Below are positions 3,784-51,975 of a stretch of DNA of 64,000 bases, in pieces. This DNA comes from Myxococcaceae bacterium (GTDB lineage: Bacteria; Myxococcota; Myxococcia; Myxococcales; Myxococcaceae). How positions within the stretch are numbered: position 1 is the first letter of the stretch; each line of letters begins with the position of its first letter. The notes beneath the pieces are model-generated. The model saw nothing but the letters and a program-made list of their open reading frames with translations. It ran no database searches and was not told where the DNA came from. The position numbers were made by a program, and so were the translations under genes. The stretch is taken from the NCBI GenBank assembly GCA_017881265.1, contig JADGRA010000016.1, positions 1 through 64,000 on the forward strand. Direction: 5' to 3'.

Positions 3784-6756
3784 ATGCGGACGAGAGGTGG
3801 GATGCTTCGTCGGGGGGGCGTTGCAGGCATTTGCTCTGGCGGGGAAAGCAAGCGCCGGTCTGGGCGCTGGCGACTTCTGGCCATCGGTGGACTGCTGCTG
3901 TGCGGAAGCGCGGGCGCGGGCCCAGCAACCGCCGTCTCCATTGGCGAAAGCACCGACAAGCTGGGCAGCATCGAGCTGCCTTCGGGCATGCGCATCGTCA
4001 TCGAGGAGGACCACAGCAAGCCTGTCGTCGTGGTCGTCACTGTCGTCGGCGCCGGCGCTGCGGACGACCCAGTGGGGAAGGAGGGGCTTGCCCATCTCGT
4101 CGAGCACCTCACTTCCCGGGCGAGGCCAGACGGCAAGATTCAGCGCGCAAACCAGCTGGACTTTGCCGGGGCCTCAAGTTGGAACGGCTCCACTACCCAT
4201 GACCTGACGACCTACGCCGTGGTCGGTCCCAAGGAGGCGCTTCGCAACCTCCTCGTCATCGAGGGCGGCCGGCTGGCAGGGCCCCTGGCCGGCCTCGACC
4301 CGCGCGTCTTCGAACTGGAGCGCGACGTGGTGAAGGCCGAGTTGGCCGGTCGGGACGAGCAGGGCGAGCCCAGTGCCGTCCAGGCGCGGCTCTACGACCT
4401 GCTTTACCCCGAGGGGCACCGGTACTTCCGCCCGGTGATGGGCACCCCCAGAAGCTTGGCCGACATCTCCCTGGCGGACGCCCAGGCGTTCGTCGCGAAG
4501 AACTACGTCCCCAGCAACGTTACCCTCTACGTGGCGGGGGACGTGGACCTGAGCACCATCCACCAGGTCTTCGGGGCCACGTTGCCGAAGACCTTCGTCG
4601 AGGCGCCAGCCACGGGGCCAGTCCCCCCGCCGGTGCGGCTAGCGAAGGTGGCCCCACCCGTGCCGCCGGTGCCACCGGCGCAGCCCATGACCACCATACG
4701 GGTCCCGGTGGACGGGCCCATGCTCTACCTCACCTGGTCGCTGCCACGGGGCTATTCGGCAGATGGCACGCTGGAACGGGCCGTTCGCTCCGCCATTGAG
4801 GCGGTCCCGGCCTGGGCCAGTCGCGGTTCGGACATCAAGGCCGTCCGGGCGACCCTGGTCGCCGGCCGTGACGCGAGCACCCTCATCTGCGCCGTCCAGT
4901 TAAAGGAGGGTCGGAATCCCGAGAAGAGCCTCGAGCGTGTGCTCGACCAGTTTCATCGCTTTTCCGACCCCAGCGCGAACGCCGACAACAACACGGCTGG
5001 CGACTCGAATCTCGGGGTGGGTGGGCTCACGGGGGGCGGCGGGGGGCGAACGCTCGACATGGCCTCGGGACTTTCCGGGTCGTCGGGGGGAGACACGGGC
5101 TTTTCGACGAGTCTGCAAAGTCGCCCCGCGGCTGGCGTCCCCGCAGAGGTGCATGTCGCTCGACTGCAGAACACCGCGGTCGTCGACGACGTTCTCGAGA
5201 CCGAGTCCGTGCTGGCGCGCGCGCGGGACAGGGCGACGATGGCCCACTGGACAGGGGACCCGTCCGCCTGGGGCAAGGACATGACCGCGATGACGGAAGT
5301 CGGCCTTTCCAAGTGGCAGGCCTTCACGCTCCAGTGGTTGAGCCGCGACCGGGCCCGCGCGCTGCTGGTGGAGCCCAACGGGGAAAGCCTCGAGGTAACC
5401 GAAAGTGGCGCCCCGCCGAAGGTGTTCGCCGCCGACGACGTCCACGTGAAAATCTCCTCCGGCGCTCTCAAGAGCTATGCGCACGGTCCGCTGGGCGACG
5501 TCCGGACTTTGACGCTGAAAAACGGGCTCCACGTCCTTCTGGTCCGGCGCCTCGGGTCGCCCACGCTGGCGGCAACCGTCGGCGTGCGGGGCGGGAGTGC
5601 AACGGCCGAGCCTCTCGGCGCCGCCGAGCTCGCCGCCCGGCTGGCGGTCCCGGTGGAAGTTGGCAACGGGCCGCCGTCGCAATTCGGCGGAAGCGTCACG
5701 CTGAAGACTGGTCTGGACGCCACCTACGTCGAGGGACGCGCTGCCTCCGGGAACCTCGCCGACCTGCTGGCCGTTCTTTCGGACACGGCGGAATCGCTAC
5801 ACGTCGACGACGGACTCAGCAGGAACTGGAACGAGATTGTTGATGCCAGGCGTCGCTTCGACGGCACGCCCAATGCCGAAGCCGACCGCCAATTTTTCGC
5901 CGAAGTGTACCCCGGCTCCTCGGCGGGCCGGGTGGCGCAGGCGGAGGACTTCAAGAAGCTTGGGACCGGACAGCTGAACCGCTGGATGGACGCGAGCTTT
6001 CGTCCCGACAACGCGGTGCTGGCAATCGTCGGCGACATCAACGTCGCCGAGACAGAACAGAAGGTTCATCAGTGGTTCGATGGCTGGAAGGGACAGCGGG
6101 ACCCACGCGCCCAGGCACCTCGCGGAGGTTTGAAGGAGCGGAAGGGGCCGGTCCGAGTCTTGACGGTTGACCGCCCCGGGGCGGAACGCACCGAGATTCG
6201 AATTGGCTGCGGCATCCAGCCCGATGGCGGGACGCGCTCAGGGACGGACCTGCTGGCCCTCAAGCTGCTGGGAGCGCGCCTGCGGACCAAGCTCGCCACC
6301 TTGGCGCGCAGCACCCTCGGGGGAAGCGATGGCTTCGCCGGCGGGGCGAGCTTCCAACTCTCGGCGGCCCGGCTCGACGTGGCGGGCACCGTCGACGGAC
6401 GGGCCCTCAATCCCGTGCTGGCGGCGGCCCGGAGTGAGCTTGTGGCTCTGGAGGACCTGAAAGTCACCGAGGACGAGTTGGCCCTGTTGAAGTGGCGCGA
6501 GGCGATGGGCTGGAACGGTCGCTACGCCACCAATGCCGAGCTGGCCCAGGCGCTGGTCTGGTCGCGGCTCGCCGAGTTGCCGCTGGACATGCTGCAGAAA
6601 TACGCAGACCAGCTCGCAGCGCTGACGCCCGAAGACGTGACCCGGGTGGCGACCGCCTGCCGCAAGACAGCCGTCCTGTTGTTGAGCGGAGACCCCGCCG
6701 TCCTCGACAAAGCGCTCTTGGTCACCGACGGCATGATGTTACGCCAGGGCCGCTAG
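3784..6756 (+). CDS. Periplasmic M16-family zinc peptidase, two-domain (long) form
   Basis: A 990-residue M16 (pitrilysin/insulinase-like) metallopeptidase. A long N-terminal signal region (hydrophobic residues 30-50) implies export. The first M16 half carries the inverted zinc site HLVEH at 104-108, with a downstream Glu in 'DVVKAELAGRD' as probable third ligand. A Gly/Ser-rich low-complexity linker lies near residues 400-440. The second half restarts with 'LKNGLHVLLVRR' near residue 580 and lacks HxxEH, so it is the usual non-catalytic lobe. The ATG at 3784 has only a weak ribosome-binding site; the Met at residue 7 is an alternative. It likely degrades or processes peptides in the periplasm. 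The unrelated M16 pair at 23.2-25.8 kb has a different, split architecture. Confidence 0.87.
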   Translation: MRTRGGMLRRGGVAGICSGGESKRRSGRWRLLAIGGLLLCGSAGAGPATAVSIGESTDKLGSIELPSGMRIVIEEDHSKPVVVVVTVVGAGAADDPVGKEGLAHLVEHLTSRARPDGKIQRANQLDFAGASSWNGSTTHDLTTYAVVGPKEALRNLLVIEGGRLAGPLAGLDPRVFELERDVVKAELAGRDEQGEPSAVQARLYDLLYPEGHRYFRPVMGTPRSLADISLADAQAFVAKNYVPSNVTLYVAGDVDLSTIHQVFGATLPKTFVEAPATGPVPPPVRLAKVAPPVPPVPPAQPMTTIRVPVDGPMLYLTWSLPRGYSADGTLERAVRSAIEAVPAWASRGSDIKAVRATLVAGRDASTLICAVQLKEGRNPEKSLERVLDQFHRFSDPSANADNNTAGDSNLGVGGLTGGGGGRTLDMASGLSGSSGGDTGFSTSLQSRPAAGVPAEVHVARLQNTAVVDDVLETESVLARARDRATMAHWTGDPSAWGKDMTAMTEVGLSKWQAFTLQWLSRDRARALLVEPNGESLEVTESGAPPKVFAADDVHVKISSGALKSYAHGPLGDVRTLTLKNGLHVLLVRRLGSPTLAATVGVRGGSATAEPLGAAELAARLAVPVEVGNGPPSQFGGSVTLKTGLDATYVEGRAASGNLADLLAVLSDTAESLHVDDGLSRNWNEIVDARRRFDGTPNAEADRQFFAEVYPGSSAGRVAQAEDFKKLGTGQLNRWMDASFRPDNAVLAIVGDINVAETEQKVHQWFDGWKGQRDPRAQAPRGGLKERKGPVRVLTVDRPGAERTEIRIGCGIQPDGGTRSGTDLLALKLLGARLRTKLATLARSTLGGSDGFAGGASFQLSAARLDVAGTVDGRALNPVLAAARSELVALEDLKVTEDELALLKWREAMGWNGRYATNAELAQALVWSRLAELPLDMLQKYADQLAALTPEDVTRVATACRKTAVLLLSGDPAVLDKALLVTDGMMLRQGR

Positions 6757-44367: not shown

Positions 44368-47300
44368 ATGATCTCCGCTCGGATTGGTCGTCCATTCGCT
44401 CGCCGCGCCCTTATGGCGGCTCTTCTGGTTTCAGCTTGCTCCAATGTGCACATCACCGGCCTGGCGGTGACCCCGGCGAGCCCAACCATCGCCAAGGGCA
44501 CGATGGTCCAGCTGACCGCGACGAAAACCTTCTCGGACAACACGGCCCAGGAGGCCACCGATGTCTCTTGGACCTCGTCTGATGGCTCGATTGCCACGGT
44601 CTCCGGTTCGGGCCTGGTGACCGGCGTGTCACCGGGAACGGTGACCGTGACGGCTTCGTCTTCAGGCGTCAGCGGCACCGTCACGGTGACGGTGACGGCG
44701 GCGTCGCTGACGTCCATCGCCGTCACTCCGGCAAATCCGTCCATCGCCGCCGGGACCACGAAGCAGTTCACTGCCACTGGCACCTATTCGGACCAGACGA
44801 GCCAGGACATCACGGCCCAGGTGACCTGGAGCTCGGCGACGCCCGCCGTGGCGACCATCGCGTCTCGCGGGCTTGCGACGGGCGTTGCGGTTGGGACGAG
44901 CTCCATCTCGGCAAGCCTTTCAGGGCAAACGGGCTCGACGCTGCTCACCGTGACGGCAGCCACCCTCAATTCCATCGCTGTCACGCCAGCGAGTCCGTCC
45001 ATCGCTGCTGGAACGACGAAGCAGTTCACTGCCATCGGAACGTATTCGGACAAGACGGCGCAGGACATCAGCAGCCTGGTCACGTGGAGCTCGGCCACAG
45101 CCTCTGTTGCGACCGTCTCGTCGCAAGGTCTTGCGACGGGTCTGTCGATTGGGACGAGTACCATCTCGGCAACTCTTTCAGGGCAAACGGGCTCGACGGT
45201 TCTCACGGTCACCGCCGCCGCGTTGACCGCCATCTCCGTCAGCCCGGCGAATCCCTCCATCGCCGCTGGCACCCCGAAGCAGTTCACTGCCACCGGCACC
45301 TACTCGGACAAGACGACCCAGGACATCACCAGCCAGGTCCTCTGGAGCTCAGGCACGACTACCGTGGCGACCATCTCTAACGCCACTGGGTCGCGAGGGC
45401 TCGCCACGGGTGCAGGAGTCGGTACCACCACCATCTCGGCGACGCTGTCCGGGCAAACTGGTACCACGACGCTCACCGTGACGGCTGCGACGTTGACCTC
45501 CATCGCGGTGACTCCGACAAATCCGTCCATTGCGTCCGGCACCCCGAAGCAGTTCACCGCCACCGGCACCTACTCGGACAAGACCACCCAGGACATCACC
45601 AACCAGGTCCTTTGGAGCTCCGGAACGACGTCCGTGGCGACCATCTCCAACGCCAACGGGTCGCGAGGGCTTGCCACGGGTGCAGGGGTCGGCGCCAGCA
45701 CCATCTCGGCGACGCTGTCGGGCCAAACCGGCTCGACGGTGCTCAGCGTCACGGCGGCGACATTGACCTCCATTGCCATCACGCCGACGAACCCGTCGAT
45801 TGCTGCGGGAACTTCGAAGCAATTCACGGCCACCGGCACCTTCTCGGACAAGACGACGCAGAACATCACCGGCCAAGCGACCTGGACCTCGGGCACGACT
45901 TCCGTGGCGACCGTCTCGAATGCCAGTGGATCCCAAGGACTTGCCACCGGTGCGGCAGTCGGTACCAGCACTATTTCGGCGGCGCTGTCAGGCCAAACGG
46001 GTTCGACGGTGCTCACCGTCACGGCGGCAACGTTGACCTCCATTGCCGTCACCCCGGTGAATCCCACCATCGCGGCAGGCACCCCCAAGCAGTTCATCGC
46101 GACCGGCACGTATTCGGACAACACGACCCAGGACGTCACGGCCCAGGTGACCTGGAGTTCAGCGATGCCCTCCGTGGCGACCATCTCCAATGCCAGTGGG
46201 TCCCAAGGGCTTGCCACGAGTGCAGCCGCCGGCTCGACGACCATCTCTGCGACACTCTCCGGTTTCAGCGACTCGACGGTGCTGACCGTGACAGCGGCGA
46301 CGCTGTCCTCGATTGCGATTAGCCCACCCACCCAGTCACTGCCTGCCGGACTGAATCAAACGTACATCGCCACCGGGACCTACACAGACAAGACGACCCA
46401 GGACATTACCCAACAGGTGACCTGGGCCTCTTCAAACACTTCCGTGGCGACCATCTCCAACGCCGTCGGTTCGCAGGGGCTGGCCAACGCCATCACGCCA
46501 GGGACAACGAACATCACCGCCTCGCTCAACGGCGTGGTGAGCAGCGCCTCGGTCTTGCAGGTGACGAATGCTACCTTGCAGAGCATCGCCATCACCCCGA
46601 CGACGCCGCAACTCCCGCTCGCCACGACGCTGCAGCTCACGGCCACCGGCACCTACTCAGATTTCTCCACTCACGACGTCACCCGGCTCGCCACGTGGGG
46701 AACGACAGCTCCGCTGGTGGTGTCGGTTTCGAACGCAGCTGGGTCCCAGGGATTGGCGTCGGCGCTCGCCCAGGGTAGCGCGACCGTCACTGCCAGCCTG
46801 GCCGGCGTCAACGGAAGCACGACGCTGACGGTCACTCCAGCGGCGCTCGTGTCGATTGCGGTGACGCCGACGAACCCAGCGATTGCCAAAGGGACCACCA
46901 AGCAATTCGTGGCCACGGGGACCTACACAGACAACTCCACGCAGGACATCACCAGCGCCGTGACCTGGGCATCCTCCGCGACCTCCGTGGCGACCATCTC
47001 CAACGCGAGTGGCTCCCAGGGCCTCGCCTCGAGCTTGGCTGTCGGGAGCAGCACCATCTCCGCATCGCTCTCCGGGCAGACGGGGACGTCGGTACTCACC
47101 GTCACGCCAGCCACGCTGGTCACGCTCGCGGTGACCCCGGCGGGAACCACCATCGCGAAGGGCACCACCGAGCAGTTTACCGCCACCGGAACTTACACCG
47201 ACAACTCGACGCAGGACCTCACTGCGACAGTGACCTGGTCGGCTGCAGATTTGTCCGTCGCTTCGGTCTCCAATGCCACTGGGACCAGTGGCCTCGCCAC

Positions 47301-49527
47301 CGGGCTAGGGGTCGGGACCACCAGCGTCATCGCCACACTGGGAAGTGTGACTGCCTTCACTGCTTTCACAGTCTCCCCTGCCACCCTGGTCTCGATTTCC
47401 GTCACCTCCTTGAATGCGGCGATTGCCAAGGGGACGTCGGAGTCGTTCACCGCCACCGGCGTCTACACGGATAATTCGACCCAAGACCTGACCACCGCAG
47501 CGAGCTGGGCCAGTTCGGACAACACGAAAGTCACCGTGTCGAACGCGTCCGGGTCGAAAGGGCTCGCCCAGGCTGTGGACATCGGGTCGGCAACGATTTC
47601 GGCAACATTCCAGGGGAGGACCGGTTCGGCTGTGCTTTCCGTGACGGCGGCGACGCTGGTGTCGATTGCCGTGACACCCCCCAGTCCGAACATTCCGACG
47701 CAGCTCAGCCTCGCATTCGTGGCAGTGGGGACTTACACCGACAACTCGACGCAAGACCTGACGACGCAGGTGACGTGGACTTCTTCCGCGCCCACGGTCG
47801 CGACCGTCTCGAACGCTGTGGGCTCTCAGGGCTCGGCGACCACTCTGGCAGTCGGTACCACCACCATCACCGCGACCCGCGGGCCGGTGAGCGGGTCTGC
47901 AAGCCTCACGGTGAACAACGCCACGTTGGTTCAAGTCACCGTGGAGCCTGCAAACGCGACGATTGCGAAGGGCACGAACCAACAGTTCACGGCGTTCGGG
48001 TTCTATTCGAACAGCGCGAAGTTCGACCTGTCGCAGTTCGCGACCTGGGCGTCCTCCAGCATCGGTGTGGCGGCGGTGTCCAACGCTGCCGGCTCTCAGG
48101 GTCTGGCCAATGGGATGGGCGTAGGAAGCTCCACCATCTCGGCGACCTTCACCGGGGTCGTCGGCCAAACGACACTCAACGTGAGCGCCGCCACACTTGT
48201 GTCCATCTCCACTCAGCCGGTCAACCCATCCGTGCCCAACGGCAGCCCACAGCAGTTTCAGGCCATTGGAACCTACACCGACCACTCGACCCAGGACATC
48301 ACCACCGCGGTCGCCTGGAACTCGACGAACACCGCGGTCGCGAGTATTGGCGCCAGCACCGGTCTGGCGCAGACCCTGTCGCTCGGTGTCACTTCCATCA
48401 CGGCAGCGCAGGGTCTGGTAACAAGTCCTGCGACGACGCTGACTGTGACCAACGCGGTTCTGAAGAGCATCGACGTCGAGCCTGCCAGCCCTTCAATCGC
48501 CGCGGGCACCACGCAGCAGTTCACCGCGACCGGCATCTACACCGACGCCACGACAAAGGATTTGACGACGCAAGTCAGCTGGACTTCCTTCAATACTGGC
48601 GTGGTCTCCATCTCCAATGCCACCGGCAGCGCTGGCCTCGCGACCAGCGTGATTCCCGGCGGCGTGACCATCAGCGCGACCGCGAATGGAATCACCGGTT
48701 CCACGCCACTAACTGTCACCGCGGCAGCCCTGCTGTCGATTGCCGTGACGCCGCCCGCACCCTCCATTGCCAAGGGCACCAGCAAGCAGTTCGCCGCCAC
48801 GGGGACCTATACGGATGGGTCGCAGACGGACCTCACGACGCAGGTGTTGTGGTCTTCCGACGCCCCTGCAGCGACGGTGTCCAACCTGTCCGGGTCACAG
48901 GGTCTCGCCACTGGCGCAAACGTGGGAACTGCCACCATCTCCGCCGCGCTGTCCGGCAAGACTGGGATGACGACCCTGACGGTCACTGCCGCGCTCCTGG
49001 TCTCCGTTGCTGTGACGCCGCCAAGTTCCAGCATCGCGCGCGGCACGACCCTACAATTCACGGCAACGGGGACCTACACCGATGCCACGACGCAGGACCT
49101 CACGACGCAAGTGACATGGTCCTCGTCGGCCGCGGGTGTGGCCTCCATTTCCAACGGCGGTTCCACGGGTTTGGCCACTGGACTGACCGTTGGCACCACC
49201 ACTATTGCGGCGACGTCGGGCACCATCAGTGGGTCCACGATGCTGACGGTCACCAGTGCCACGCTGGTTTCCATCGCGGTCACGCCAATGAATCCGACAA
49301 TTCCGGTGCACAGCACCCTGCAGTTCACGGCGACCGGTACTTACACTGACAACAGCACGCAGGACCTGACCAGTCAGGTAACTTGGACGTCAACGAACCC
49401 AAGCAAGCTTTCCATTTCGGATGCGGCGGGCTCGCAGGGCCTTGCCACGGGCCTTGCCTCCGCAATGGTGACAATCAACGCAGCCTCCGGTTCCGTGTCC
49501 GGAAGCACGACCGCGACGGTGCCCTGA
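44368..49527 (+). CDS. Giant lipoprotein of 19 tandem BIG2 domains
   Basis: A 1719-residue surface lipoprotein. The signal peptide ends with lipobox VSAC, lipidated Cys24; all the rest is 19 consecutive bacterial Ig-like (BIG2) repeats of about 86-90 residues. Each repeat has '(S/A)IAVTP...PSIA(A/K)GT', 'QFTATGTYSD', 'T(T/S)QD(I/L)T', 'V(A/T)TISN' and 'GLATG'-type blocks. BIG2 domains occur in intimin/invasin-like adhesins and cell-surface proteins. No catalytic or C-terminal anchor domain is evident; the protein simply ends after the last repeat. Start ATG at 44368 with GGAAAGG five bases upstream. Confidence 0.9.
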   Translation: MISARIGRPFARRALMAALLVSACSNVHITGLAVTPASPTIAKGTMVQLTATKTFSDNTAQEATDVSWTSSDGSIATVSGSGLVTGVSPGTVTVTASSSGVSGTVTVTVTAASLTSIAVTPANPSIAAGTTKQFTATGTYSDQTSQDITAQVTWSSATPAVATIASRGLATGVAVGTSSISASLSGQTGSTLLTVTAATLNSIAVTPASPSIAAGTTKQFTAIGTYSDKTAQDISSLVTWSSATASVATVSSQGLATGLSIGTSTISATLSGQTGSTVLTVTAAALTAISVSPANPSIAAGTPKQFTATGTYSDKTTQDITSQVLWSSGTTTVATISNATGSRGLATGAGVGTTTISATLSGQTGTTTLTVTAATLTSIAVTPTNPSIASGTPKQFTATGTYSDKTTQDITNQVLWSSGTTSVATISNANGSRGLATGAGVGASTISATLSGQTGSTVLSVTAATLTSIAITPTNPSIAAGTSKQFTATGTFSDKTTQNITGQATWTSGTTSVATVSNASGSQGLATGAAVGTSTISAALSGQTGSTVLTVTAATLTSIAVTPVNPTIAAGTPKQFIATGTYSDNTTQDVTAQVTWSSAMPSVATISNASGSQGLATSAAAGSTTISATLSGFSDSTVLTVTAATLSSIAISPPTQSLPAGLNQTYIATGTYTDKTTQDITQQVTWASSNTSVATISNAVGSQGLANAITPGTTNITASLNGVVSSASVLQVTNATLQSIAITPTTPQLPLATTLQLTATGTYSDFSTHDVTRLATWGTTAPLVVSVSNAAGSQGLASALAQGSATVTASLAGVNGSTTLTVTPAALVSIAVTPTNPAIAKGTTKQFVATGTYTDNSTQDITSAVTWASSATSVATISNASGSQGLASSLAVGSSTISASLSGQTGTSVLTVTPATLVTLAVTPAGTTIAKGTTEQFTATGTYTDNSTQDLTATVTWSAADLSVASVSNATGTSGLATGLGVGTTSVIATLGSVTAFTAFTVSPATLVSISVTSLNAAIAKGTSESFTATGVYTDNSTQDLTTAASWASSDNTKVTVSNASGSKGLAQAVDIGSATISATFQGRTGSAVLSVTAATLVSIAVTPPSPNIPTQLSLAFVAVGTYTDNSTQDLTTQVTWTSSAPTVATVSNAVGSQGSATTLAVGTTTITATRGPVSGSASLTVNNATLVQVTVEPANATIAKGTNQQFTAFGFYSNSAKFDLSQFATWASSSIGVAAVSNAAGSQGLANGMGVGSSTISATFTGVVGQTTLNVSAATLVSISTQPVNPSVPNGSPQQFQAIGTYTDHSTQDITTAVAWNSTNTAVASIGASTGLAQTLSLGVTSITAAQGLVTSPATTLTVTNAVLKSIDVEPASPSIAAGTTQQFTATGIYTDATTKDLTTQVSWTSFNTGVVSISNATGSAGLATSVIPGGVTISATANGITGSTPLTVTAAALLSIAVTPPAPSIAKGTSKQFAATGTYTDGSQTDLTTQVLWSSDAPAATVSNLSGSQGLATGANVGTATISAALSGKTGMTTLTVTAALLVSVAVTPPSSSIARGTTLQFTATGTYTDATTQDLTTQVTWSSSAAGVASISNGGSTGLATGLTVGTTTIAATSGTISGSTMLTVTSATLVSIAVTPMNPTIPVHSTLQFTATGTYTDNSTQDLTSQVTWTSTNPSKLSISDAAGSQGLATGLASAMVTINAASGSVSGSTTATVP
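44455..49524 (+). repeat. Tandem protein-coding repeats, about 264-270 bp unit
   Basis: The 19 units are near 270 bp. Units 4, 5 and 6 are very close at DNA level (for example, ACCCCGAAGCAGTTCAC at 45271 and again at 45541, 270 bp apart), while others differ more. This pattern indicates tandem duplication or gene conversion rather than ancient divergence for the central units. Confidence 0.85.
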
Positions 49528-50325: not shown

Positions 50326-50607
50326 TCACCGAGGGGGAATCCGCTCCTGACGCGAGGTCCAGCGTGCCCGCGCTCGCTCGCGCTCATGCTCTCGTGTCCT
50401 CACGGAAGTCCGAGCATGGAGTGTCGAAAGTAGAGTTTCCGTGCTCGAGGCGATCTCGGTGATCGCTCTCTCGAACGCCGATGCGTCTGCGACGGAGGGC
50501 CGGGAAAGTCCGCTTACCTTCCGCACGAACTGCGTGGCGGCGGCACGAATCTCATCCCGCGTCGTGGGTGGCTCGAAATTGTAGAGCACGCGGATGCTGC
50601 GGCACAT
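50326..50607 (-). CDS. DUF2277 family protein
   Basis: A 93-residue protein beginning 'MCRSIRVLYNFEPP', the typical start of DUF2277, with 'EIRAAATQFVRKVSG' and a basic charged tail. Function unknown. Start ATG at 50607 with GAGGAGAG upstream. It lies 99 bp downstream of the hydratase genes on the same strand and may belong to the transcript. Convergent with the GyrI-like gene. Confidence 0.85.
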   Translation of the reverse strand: MCRSIRVLYNFEPPTTRDEIRAAATQFVRKVSGLSRPSVADASAFERAITEIASSTETLLSTLHARTSVRTREHERERARARWTSRQERIPPR

Positions 50608-50706: not shown

Positions 50707-51339
50707 TCAACGCGACGCGCAGACGGCAACGCCGACCATCGCATCGCGACCGACGAGGGCTCCAAGCTGCTGCTCTTGCCACTCGTCTGTACCGACTGGG
50801 CGCATCGGCAAGACGAGGTAGCGCATGTCCGCAGTCGAGTCATGGACGCGGACCGTCGTGTCCTGCGGGAGTTCGAGACCAAACTCGCGGAGAACGGCGC
50901 GGGGCTCCCGCACCATCCGGCTTCGGTAGTTGCGGCTCTTGTACCAGTCGGGCGGTAAACCGAGGAGCCAGCGGGGGTAACAGGAACAGAGGGTGCAAAC
51001 GATGACGTTGTGCACGTCGGGGGTATTCTCCACCACGACCAGCTTGTAGGGGCCCCGCTCGAGGCCCATGGTCTCGACTGCCGCGTTGCCGTCGGCCATG
51101 AGAAGGCGGTGAAACACCGGGTCCGACCACGCTCTGGCCACCACCGCGGCCCCACGGGCGGGGGTGCGACTGTCCATGTCCTCGACCTGCCGCCGAACTT
51201 GGTCCGCAGTGAGGACACCCTTTTCAATAAGGAGCTCCCGGACAGCGACTTCCATGCGCTGGAAGTATGTGAGAGGCGTACCCTCGTCCGCTCGCGTCGG
51301 GTGCTGGTGGGCGTCAGCTTCGCCGTGGTGTCCCGTCAT
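50707..51339 (-). CDS. Nitrile hydratase alpha / thiocyanate hydrolase gamma-type subunit
   Basis: A 210-residue metal-binding subunit. The motif 'VCTLCSC' (Cys115, Cys118, Cys120) coordinates the catalytic metal; Thr in the second position marks the cobalt type, as in Co-nitrile hydratases and thiocyanate hydrolase. 'MEVAVRELLIEKGVLT' and 'CYPRWLLGLPPDWYKS' are family landmarks. The reaction would be hydration of a nitrile or hydrolysis of thiocyanate; not decidable. The ATG at 51339 overlaps the previous gene by 26 bp. No activator gene (P47K or P14K-like) is seen nearby. Confidence 0.9.
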   Translation of the reverse strand: MTGHHGEADAHQHPTRADEGTPLTYFQRMEVAVRELLIEKGVLTADQVRRQVEDMDSRTPARGAAVVARAWSDPVFHRLLMADGNAAVETMGLERGPYKLVVVENTPDVHNVIVCTLCSCYPRWLLGLPPDWYKSRNYRSRMVREPRAVLREFGLELPQDTTVRVHDSTADMRYLVLPMRPVGTDEWQEQQLGALVGRDAMVGVAVCASR

Positions 51340-51646
51340 TGTTCACCCCTGTCGGCTGCAACCAGTGCTGGAAGATTTCGACGTCTACGGTGTCAGAGGG
51401 GCCCCCTTCGTAGTCGGCCCAAAGGTCTGCTTGCCGAAAGCGCACCCGGTACAGCGGCTGCGCCGGGAGCCCCGAACGGCCGTAAGCCATCTCCTCGGGA
51501 TTGGGGTAGGTGCCGCACAGCCGTTCGATGACTCCCTCGCAGCCGCGGACATAGGCGGGTGTTCGCACGTGGCCCGGAGGATGAGCGGCGCGGACCGCGA
51601 CGTGCTCGCCGGGCTCGAAGCGAACAGGCTCGGTCTGCTCGCTCAA
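51314..51646 (-). CDS. Nitrile hydratase beta C-terminal half, separate subunit
   Basis: A 110-residue protein equal to the C-terminal domain of nitrile hydratase beta. 'PGEHVAVRAAHPPGHVR' and 'TPAYVRGCEGVIERL' with 'PLYRVRFRQADLW' are its landmarks. The TTG at 51646 overlaps the previous stop as TTGA, and AGGGG lies a few bases upstream, so it is a genuine separate start and not a frameshift. In thiocyanate hydrolase (scnBAC) and toyocamycin nitrile hydratase the beta subunit is likewise split. Confidence 0.8.
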   Translation of the reverse strand: MSEQTEPVRFEPGEHVAVRAAHPPGHVRTPAYVRGCEGVIERLCGTYPNPEEMAYGRSGLPAQPLYRVRFRQADLWADYEGGPSDTVDVEIFQHWLQPTGVNNDGTPRRS

Positions 51647-51975
51647 AGCTCGCCCCTGGCGACGCGGTGCTCCACGTCCGCCATCTTGCGGCCCAACTCG
51701 TCGACGGTGAGGACCCCATGCTGAAGCAGCGTGGCTGTGATGCTGTGCATCCAGCGCTCGTAGTAGCTCAGGCTGTCGTAGACGCCTGGCCCGAGCGCCT
51801 CGATGTTGCGTCGGAGCTCGTCCACCGTCATCTGGCGGTTGTCCTTGCGGGACAACAGCACCAGCAGCGCATCCACACGCTTCTCCCACAGCGCGTAATC
51901 ATGTTCCGTGCGCGCCACCGGGCCGGCGGGCTGACCACCCATGTCGTGGGGGGGAGGGGCAGGGTGCTCGGGCAT
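51643..51975 (-). CDS. Nitrile hydratase beta N-terminal half, separate subunit
   Basis: A 110-residue protein equal to the N-terminal domain of nitrile hydratase beta: 'HDMGGQPAGPV' near the start, 'ALWEKRVDALLVLL' (the Arg of the WExR segment faces the active site in known enzymes), 'SYYERWMHSITATLLQHGVL', then 'TVDELGRKMADVEHRVARGEL'. Start ATG at 51975; the stop is shared with the next gene (TTGA). Gene order N-half, C-half, alpha equals scnB-scnA-scnC. Confidence 0.82.
   Translation of the reverse strand: MPEHPAPPPHDMGGQPAGPVARTEHDYALWEKRVDALLVLLSRKDNRQMTVDELRRNIEALGPGVYDSLSYYERWMHSITATLLQHGVLTVDELGRKMADVEHRVARGEL

Follow-up and report, generated by a model that had tools for sequence, protein, structure and literature searches.

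The question raised by the 64,000 nucleotides of Myxococcaceae DNA analyzed here (the window; contig JADGRA010000016.1) is whether three short overlapping genes on its minus strand encode a single enzyme of the nitrile hydratase (NHase) superfamily with a beta subunit made as two polypeptides and, if so, whether its affinities lie with the NHases or with thiocyanate hydrolase (SCNase). Translation of the three genes yields proteins of 110, 110, and 210 aa free of internal stops. The first, beta-N (51643..51975; P0001, 12.5 kDa), matches PF21006 (E=1.7e-17); the second, beta-C (51314..51646; P0002, 12.3 kDa), begins with TTG and matches PF02211 (E=6.3e-24); the third (50707..51339; P0003, 23.7 kDa) encodes the metal-binding alpha subunit and matches NHase_alpha PF02979 (E=5.3e-79). 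In a profile search of the window genome, PF02979 and PF21006 each match at this locus only. The translations and Pfam matches thus agree with the gene order and overlaps of the original prediction: beta-N and beta-C share the four bases TTGA (51643..51646, minus strand), preceded by CCAGGGGCGAGCT, and the end of beta-C overlaps the start of the alpha gene by 26 bases (51314..51339, minus strand), as seen in the sequence. No start codon other than the TTG in the vicinity of the beta-N end would retain a complete beta-C domain, and homologues have ATGA (24 loci) or GTGA (9 loci) at this junction; these observations support, short of proof, TTG as the start of beta-C.

To place this arrangement in context, we scanned 84,980 species genomes, which returned at least 593 candidates. 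From these we retained the best 80 loci; adding the window and seven loci from plasmids gave a set of 88, which comprises the closest loci by alpha subunit among the matches listed rather than a random sample of NHases. Among these best relatives, 84 loci are complete in their three parts, and in every one (84/84) the beta halves lie in different ORFs, bearing out the claim that they are separate genes. The order is beta-N, beta-C, alpha in 75 of the 84 and beta-C, alpha, beta-N in the other nine; 36 of the 75 display a 4-base start/stop overlap (24 ATGA, 9 GTGA, and 3 TTGA, the window being among the last). P0001 covers positions 4-98 of TIGR03888, the model of the fused beta subunit, and P0002 positions 134-225, such that positions 99-133 in the middle of the fused form are matched by neither. 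Hence, even though a single missing base at the TTGA could in principle join the frames, there is practically no chance that the split reflects misassembly of, or a recent frameshift in, an otherwise ordinary beta gene of the fused kind, because the frames are separate in all 84 complete relatives from different assemblies, neither short chain covers the middle of the fused model, and the 4-base coupling is common to 36 loci. Loci of this kind number at least 84, the window locus among them, and are not rare; the small size of the window subunits, originally noted as below that of described thiocyanate hydrolases, is normal for the branch.

Two relatives depart from the usual layout. In Alphaproteobacteria bacterium MarineAlpha3_Bin7 (L095:3154-4152), beta-N is fused to alpha in one ORF of ~310 aa, with a separate beta-C at 4156; we know of no previous description of such a natural beta-N-alpha fusion. 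A Devosia equisanguinis MAG (L074:2200-2907) has a tandem pair of beta-N genes followed by beta-C and alpha, and one of the pair might be a dedicated activator.

The residues expected of a functional active site are distributed over all three chains. The alpha subunit contains the predicted VCTLCSC motif, of which CTLCSC (P0003 residues 115-120; 50980..50997, minus strand) is invariant in the alignments of relatives. By numbering derived by hand from alignments to the Pseudomonas putida NHase 3qxe and the Rhodococcus NHase 3a8m, R55 of P0001 (codon 51811-51813, minus strand) corresponds to beta-Arg52/56, E59 to beta-Glu56 (P. putida numbering), and Y71 to beta-Tyr72, while R28 of P0002 (codon 51563-51565, minus strand) corresponds to beta-Arg141/157. 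These three residues of P0001, as well as H26, R28, and P30 of P0002, are invariant in 18-sequence alignments of the window and genome-contig loci, plasmid rows being left out. The two beta arginines (R52/R157) are reported to pair with the oxidized cysteines (PMC7193024). Given that one counterpart is on P0001 and the other on P0002, the residues clamping the metal site are contributed by two different chains, with the metal ligands on P0003 completing the set. Structural comparisons are consistent with this assignment. The best PDB sequence matches of both half-beta proteins are NHase beta and the corresponding SCNase subunits, P0001 pairing with SCNase beta and P0002 with SCNase alpha. As modeled by AlphaFold (pLDDT 89.7), P0002 folds into a domain that is complete in itself and resembles NHase beta as well as SCNase alpha over nearly its full length, with all 29 PDB matches at E<=0.001 being NHase beta or SCNase chains. 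The model of P0001 (pLDDT 83) is helical; its top 25 PDB matches have weak E-values and are likewise all NHase beta or SCNase chains.

We consider it likely that the three genes together specify a single Co(III)-type enzyme belonging to the NHase superfamily, its beta subunit being made as two polypeptides. The domains, residues, and lineage support the original reading as a split NHase/SCNase-like enzyme; as to its metal, the motif is present as claimed, and we infer cobalt from this motif together with the cobalt transporter genes (CbtAB, NiCoT) that adjoin five relatives (L012, L014, L015, L016, and L020). The window genome has only a weak NicO match to a cobalt transporter, located elsewhere. 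In the proposed mechanism, the alpha subunit would bind cobalt through CTLCSC, R55 of beta-N and R28 of beta-C would hold two oxidized cysteines, and an (alpha, beta-N, beta-C)2 particle would hydrate a C-N triple bond.

How such an enzyme might acquire its metal is a further question, as an annotated activator gene accompanies all the annotated classic loci that we fetched. The absence of an adjacent activator gene, noted originally, is confirmed and extends to the whole window genome (4.4 Mb, 95.7% complete), in which the activator model TIGR03889 has no match; the same model matches 5/5 positive controls (four plasmids, plus a genome from the same order that encodes a classic NHase). Likewise, an HMM built from 13 activators matched no ORF at the split loci besides the beta-N and alpha genes. 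Since activators are homologous to beta-N, and AnhD of the Streptomyces canus NHase (ScNHase) is at once a metallochaperone, a swapping chaperone, and a half-beta (PMC7329996), the beta-N gene might itself be read as a P14K/NhlE-like activator, with the enzyme consisting of alpha and beta-C only. We regard this as very unlikely: P0001 scores 57.8 bits against an HMM of classic beta-N versus 20.3 against the activator HMM, is not matched by TIGR03889, and keeps the catalytic R55, E59, and Y71. As no activator was found in the genome, insertion of cobalt into the preferred three-chain enzyme is probably either assisted by the beta-N chain, in the manner of AnhD, or spontaneous. A His-rich alpha N-terminus was also considered as a mark of activator loss and rejected: over the first 35 residues the mean His count is 5.9 versus 3.6 in classic forms, with wide overlap, and the window has 4.

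The affinities of the locus were sought in a tree of 40 alpha subunits, later enlarged with Streptomyces sequences; these careful trees replaced an earlier, fast one that was unreliable, as were the clade tests made on it, in that constrained trees outscored the free tree. In the 40-alpha tree, the split branch and SCNase fall together, apart from the classic NHases (100/100), with the window inside a set of 13 split rows (96/86). The nearest alpha subunits among the matches listed, from gammaproteobacterial and Rhodocyclaceae genomes, are 72-74% identical to P0003. Once the Streptomyces sequences were added, a second split type came to light, marked by CTLCSCYPL and a beta-N of ~10.4 kDa; it groups with the classic NHases, again at 100/100. 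Because the published anhD primers of ScNHase encode the MARINDVG start and EPGELDD-stop end of this type, the characterized three-subunit NHase lies outside the window branch. The phylogeny of the alpha subunit against NHase and SCNase, proposed originally as a check, thus unites the window with SCNase and not with the characterized three-subunit NHase. Streptomyces genomes (L128-L158) contain three NHase types, namely classic with activator (YPW), split ScNHase-type (YPL/YPI), and split window-type (YPR), and one genome (G151) has both split types. A further split form, in Gloeocapsopsis, falls on the classic side of the tree. These placements suggest, without proving, that the beta subunit was split on more than one occasion; a single origin of all split forms is not rejected by the AU test (p=0.33).

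The residue following CTLCSCYP serves as a marker of the branch. It is Arg in 84/88 and Lys in 4/88 of the window branch and Arg in both SCNases, as against Trp in 14/14 classic-clade rows of the first set. In P0003 it is Arg123 (50971..50973, minus strand), equivalent to gamma-Arg136 of SCNase. The PDB entries 3vyg (SCNase) and 3vyh (NHase) have W and R, respectively, at this position, which suggests that it was apparently swapped in them and is regarded by others as a specificity position. Family models give an intermediate picture: P0003 passes the NHase alpha model TIGR01323 with 253.8 bits (cut-off 249.85), a margin of 4 bits where classic members score ~302-309, and fails the SCNase gamma model TIGR03887 with 214.9 bits (cut-off 291.45). 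Scores for the window branch overall fall between those of the two families.

On this evidence the enzyme could be a thiocyanate hydrolase, which has the same three-part build and subunit order (scnB-scnA-scnC) and converts thiocyanate to carbonyl sulfide and ammonia. The grouping with SCNase and the shared Arg point in this direction, but Arg123 is found across the split branch and so is not diagnostic. Moreover, P0003 lies 76 bits below the TIGR03887 cut-off, whereas the annotated scnC of L018 scores 359; it has neither the insertion ahead of the metal motif nor the WPR motif, both common to the two SCNases, and shows LGLPPxWYK and EPR where these have LG[HQ]SPxWYR and WPR. The SCNases also sit on a long branch (0.83-1.0), and their operon includes an activator (PMC7193024), of which none was found in the window genome. 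Taken together, these differences make SCNase activity improbable. Our call from the sequence comparisons is instead an NHase-type enzyme of an apparently uncharacterized, SCNase-proximal branch. A nitrile is the somewhat favored first choice of substrate; thiocyanate or another anionic cyano compound is possible, given that the residue after the metal motif is Arg instead of Trp. The gene set has no amidase or nitrile gene beside it, and five amidase-signature proteins are encoded elsewhere in the genome. The preferred NHase-type reading has to accommodate the thin margin over the NHase cut-off, the SCNase-like Arg123, and the provenance of the AnhD precedent in a different branch. A broader evolutionary proposal, which we put forward as speculative and on balance rather unlikely, is that the window branch, with its split beta, lack of an activator, and basic residue replacing Trp, is the pool that gave rise to thiocyanate hydrolase, its members acting on small anionic or polar cyano substrates instead of typical nitriles, with beta-N as both half-subunit and activator. 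To our knowledge, no member of the exact window branch other than SCNase has been assayed, and we found no description of this branch in the open-access literature.

The last of these elements, that beta-N might be a structural half-beta and its own activator, with the split having allowed loss of the dedicated activator, refines rather than competes with the preferred explanation, and we give it a reasonable but somewhat less than even chance. No locus of the window branch has a separate activator-like ORF, and the AnhD2A complex of ScNHase provides a precedent for activator-free maturation via the beta-N chain (PMC7329996); since AnhD comes from another branch, the precedent is an analogy rather than a demonstrated shared mechanism. 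Against a simple relationship between splitting and activator loss, SCNase is split yet has an activator (PMC7193024), and so does the Gloeocapsopsis dulcis plasmid locus (L117:2453-4120), a four-gene set in which alpha, beta-N, and beta-C are joined by an annotated activator and the marker residue is Trp.

The window branch is widespread, spanning Proteobacteria, Cyanobacteria, Streptomyces, Binatota, and Rokuibacteriota. Among 147 genomes of the window's class a full-length NHase alpha is present only in the window genome and in one other, where it is of the classic type. This rarity, along with the closest relatives being in Proteobacteria, suggests acquisition by horizontal transfer. Searches of phage records gave no match. 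Short, weak NHase-alpha matches in genomes of the window's family (L003-L010) cover only the N-terminal part of the model and probably represent RiPP leader peptides of the NHLP type, not enzymes. With regard to gene neighborhoods, no operon partner is conserved across the branch, the flanking-gene clusters that recur at many loci do not include the window, and Pfam matches beside L022, L023, L027, and L028 offered no substrate hint. A DUF2277 gene (50326-50598, minus strand) just downstream of the alpha gene was considered as a fourth subunit; it adjoins the gene set in the window only (1/88 loci), and we take the proximity as chance. Seventy-four bases upstream of the gene set, a gene from 52050 to ~52900 on the same strand encodes a C-terminal cytochrome c domain and, at its N-terminus, a region like an oxidoreductase molybdopterin-binding domain, and may be co-transcribed with it. 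Elsewhere in the window, a plus-strand ORF of 1719 aa (44368-49527) has a lipoprotein-like start and many repeats of ~80-90 residues that are Ig-like in look.

As the enzyme family is known and the branch widespread, the novelty is modest: it lies in an apparently uncharacterized branch, distinct from the studied three-subunit NHase and next to SCNase, whose Arg it shares. Three-subunit NHases are easily lumped as one kind, yet the data point to at least two split-beta branches, the ScNHase type beside the classic NHases and the window type beside SCNase. The presence of the SCNase Arg in an otherwise NHase-like subunit makes the origin of SCNase specificity testable, as is the question of whether a split beta permits maturation without a dedicated activator. 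For biocatalysis with nitriles or thiocyanate, the branch also offers candidates that are compact and activator-free.

Comparison with the known systems places these features in relief. The classic cobalt NHases (e.g., PDB 1ire and 3qxe) share with the window the metal motif, catalytic residues, and the folds of both beta halves; they differ in their fused beta subunit, adjacent activator gene, and Trp instead of Arg after CTLCSCYP. ScNHase (AnhD-AnhE-AnhA) resembles the window more closely in organization, with the order beta-N, beta-C, alpha, no activator gene, and three small chains (10.4, 11.4, and 21.3 kDa versus 12.5, 12.3, and 23.7), P0001 corresponding to AnhD and P0002 to AnhE. Nevertheless, with its CTLCSCYPL motif and MARINDVGG beta-N versus CTLCSCYPR in the window, it lies on the opposite side of a branch supported at 100/100. 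The toyocamycin NHase ToyJKL of Streptomyces rimosus, from a nucleoside antibiotic cluster, has three subunits assembled as (alpha beta gamma)2 (PMC8574189, PMC12648386), and its subunit masses of 21.2, 10, and 11.4 kDa fit the Streptomyces YPL type, to which we infer it belongs. Finally, the SCNase of Thiobacillus thioparus (PDB 2dd4 and related entries) also comprises three polypeptides, its beta, alpha, and gamma being the counterparts of P0001, P0002, and P0003. Its chains are longer (157, 126, and 243 aa), it has an activator gene, and its gamma subunit carries the insertion and sequence motifs by which P0003 differs from it, but it shares with the window the same side of the alpha tree (100/100) and the same Arg after CTLCSCYP.
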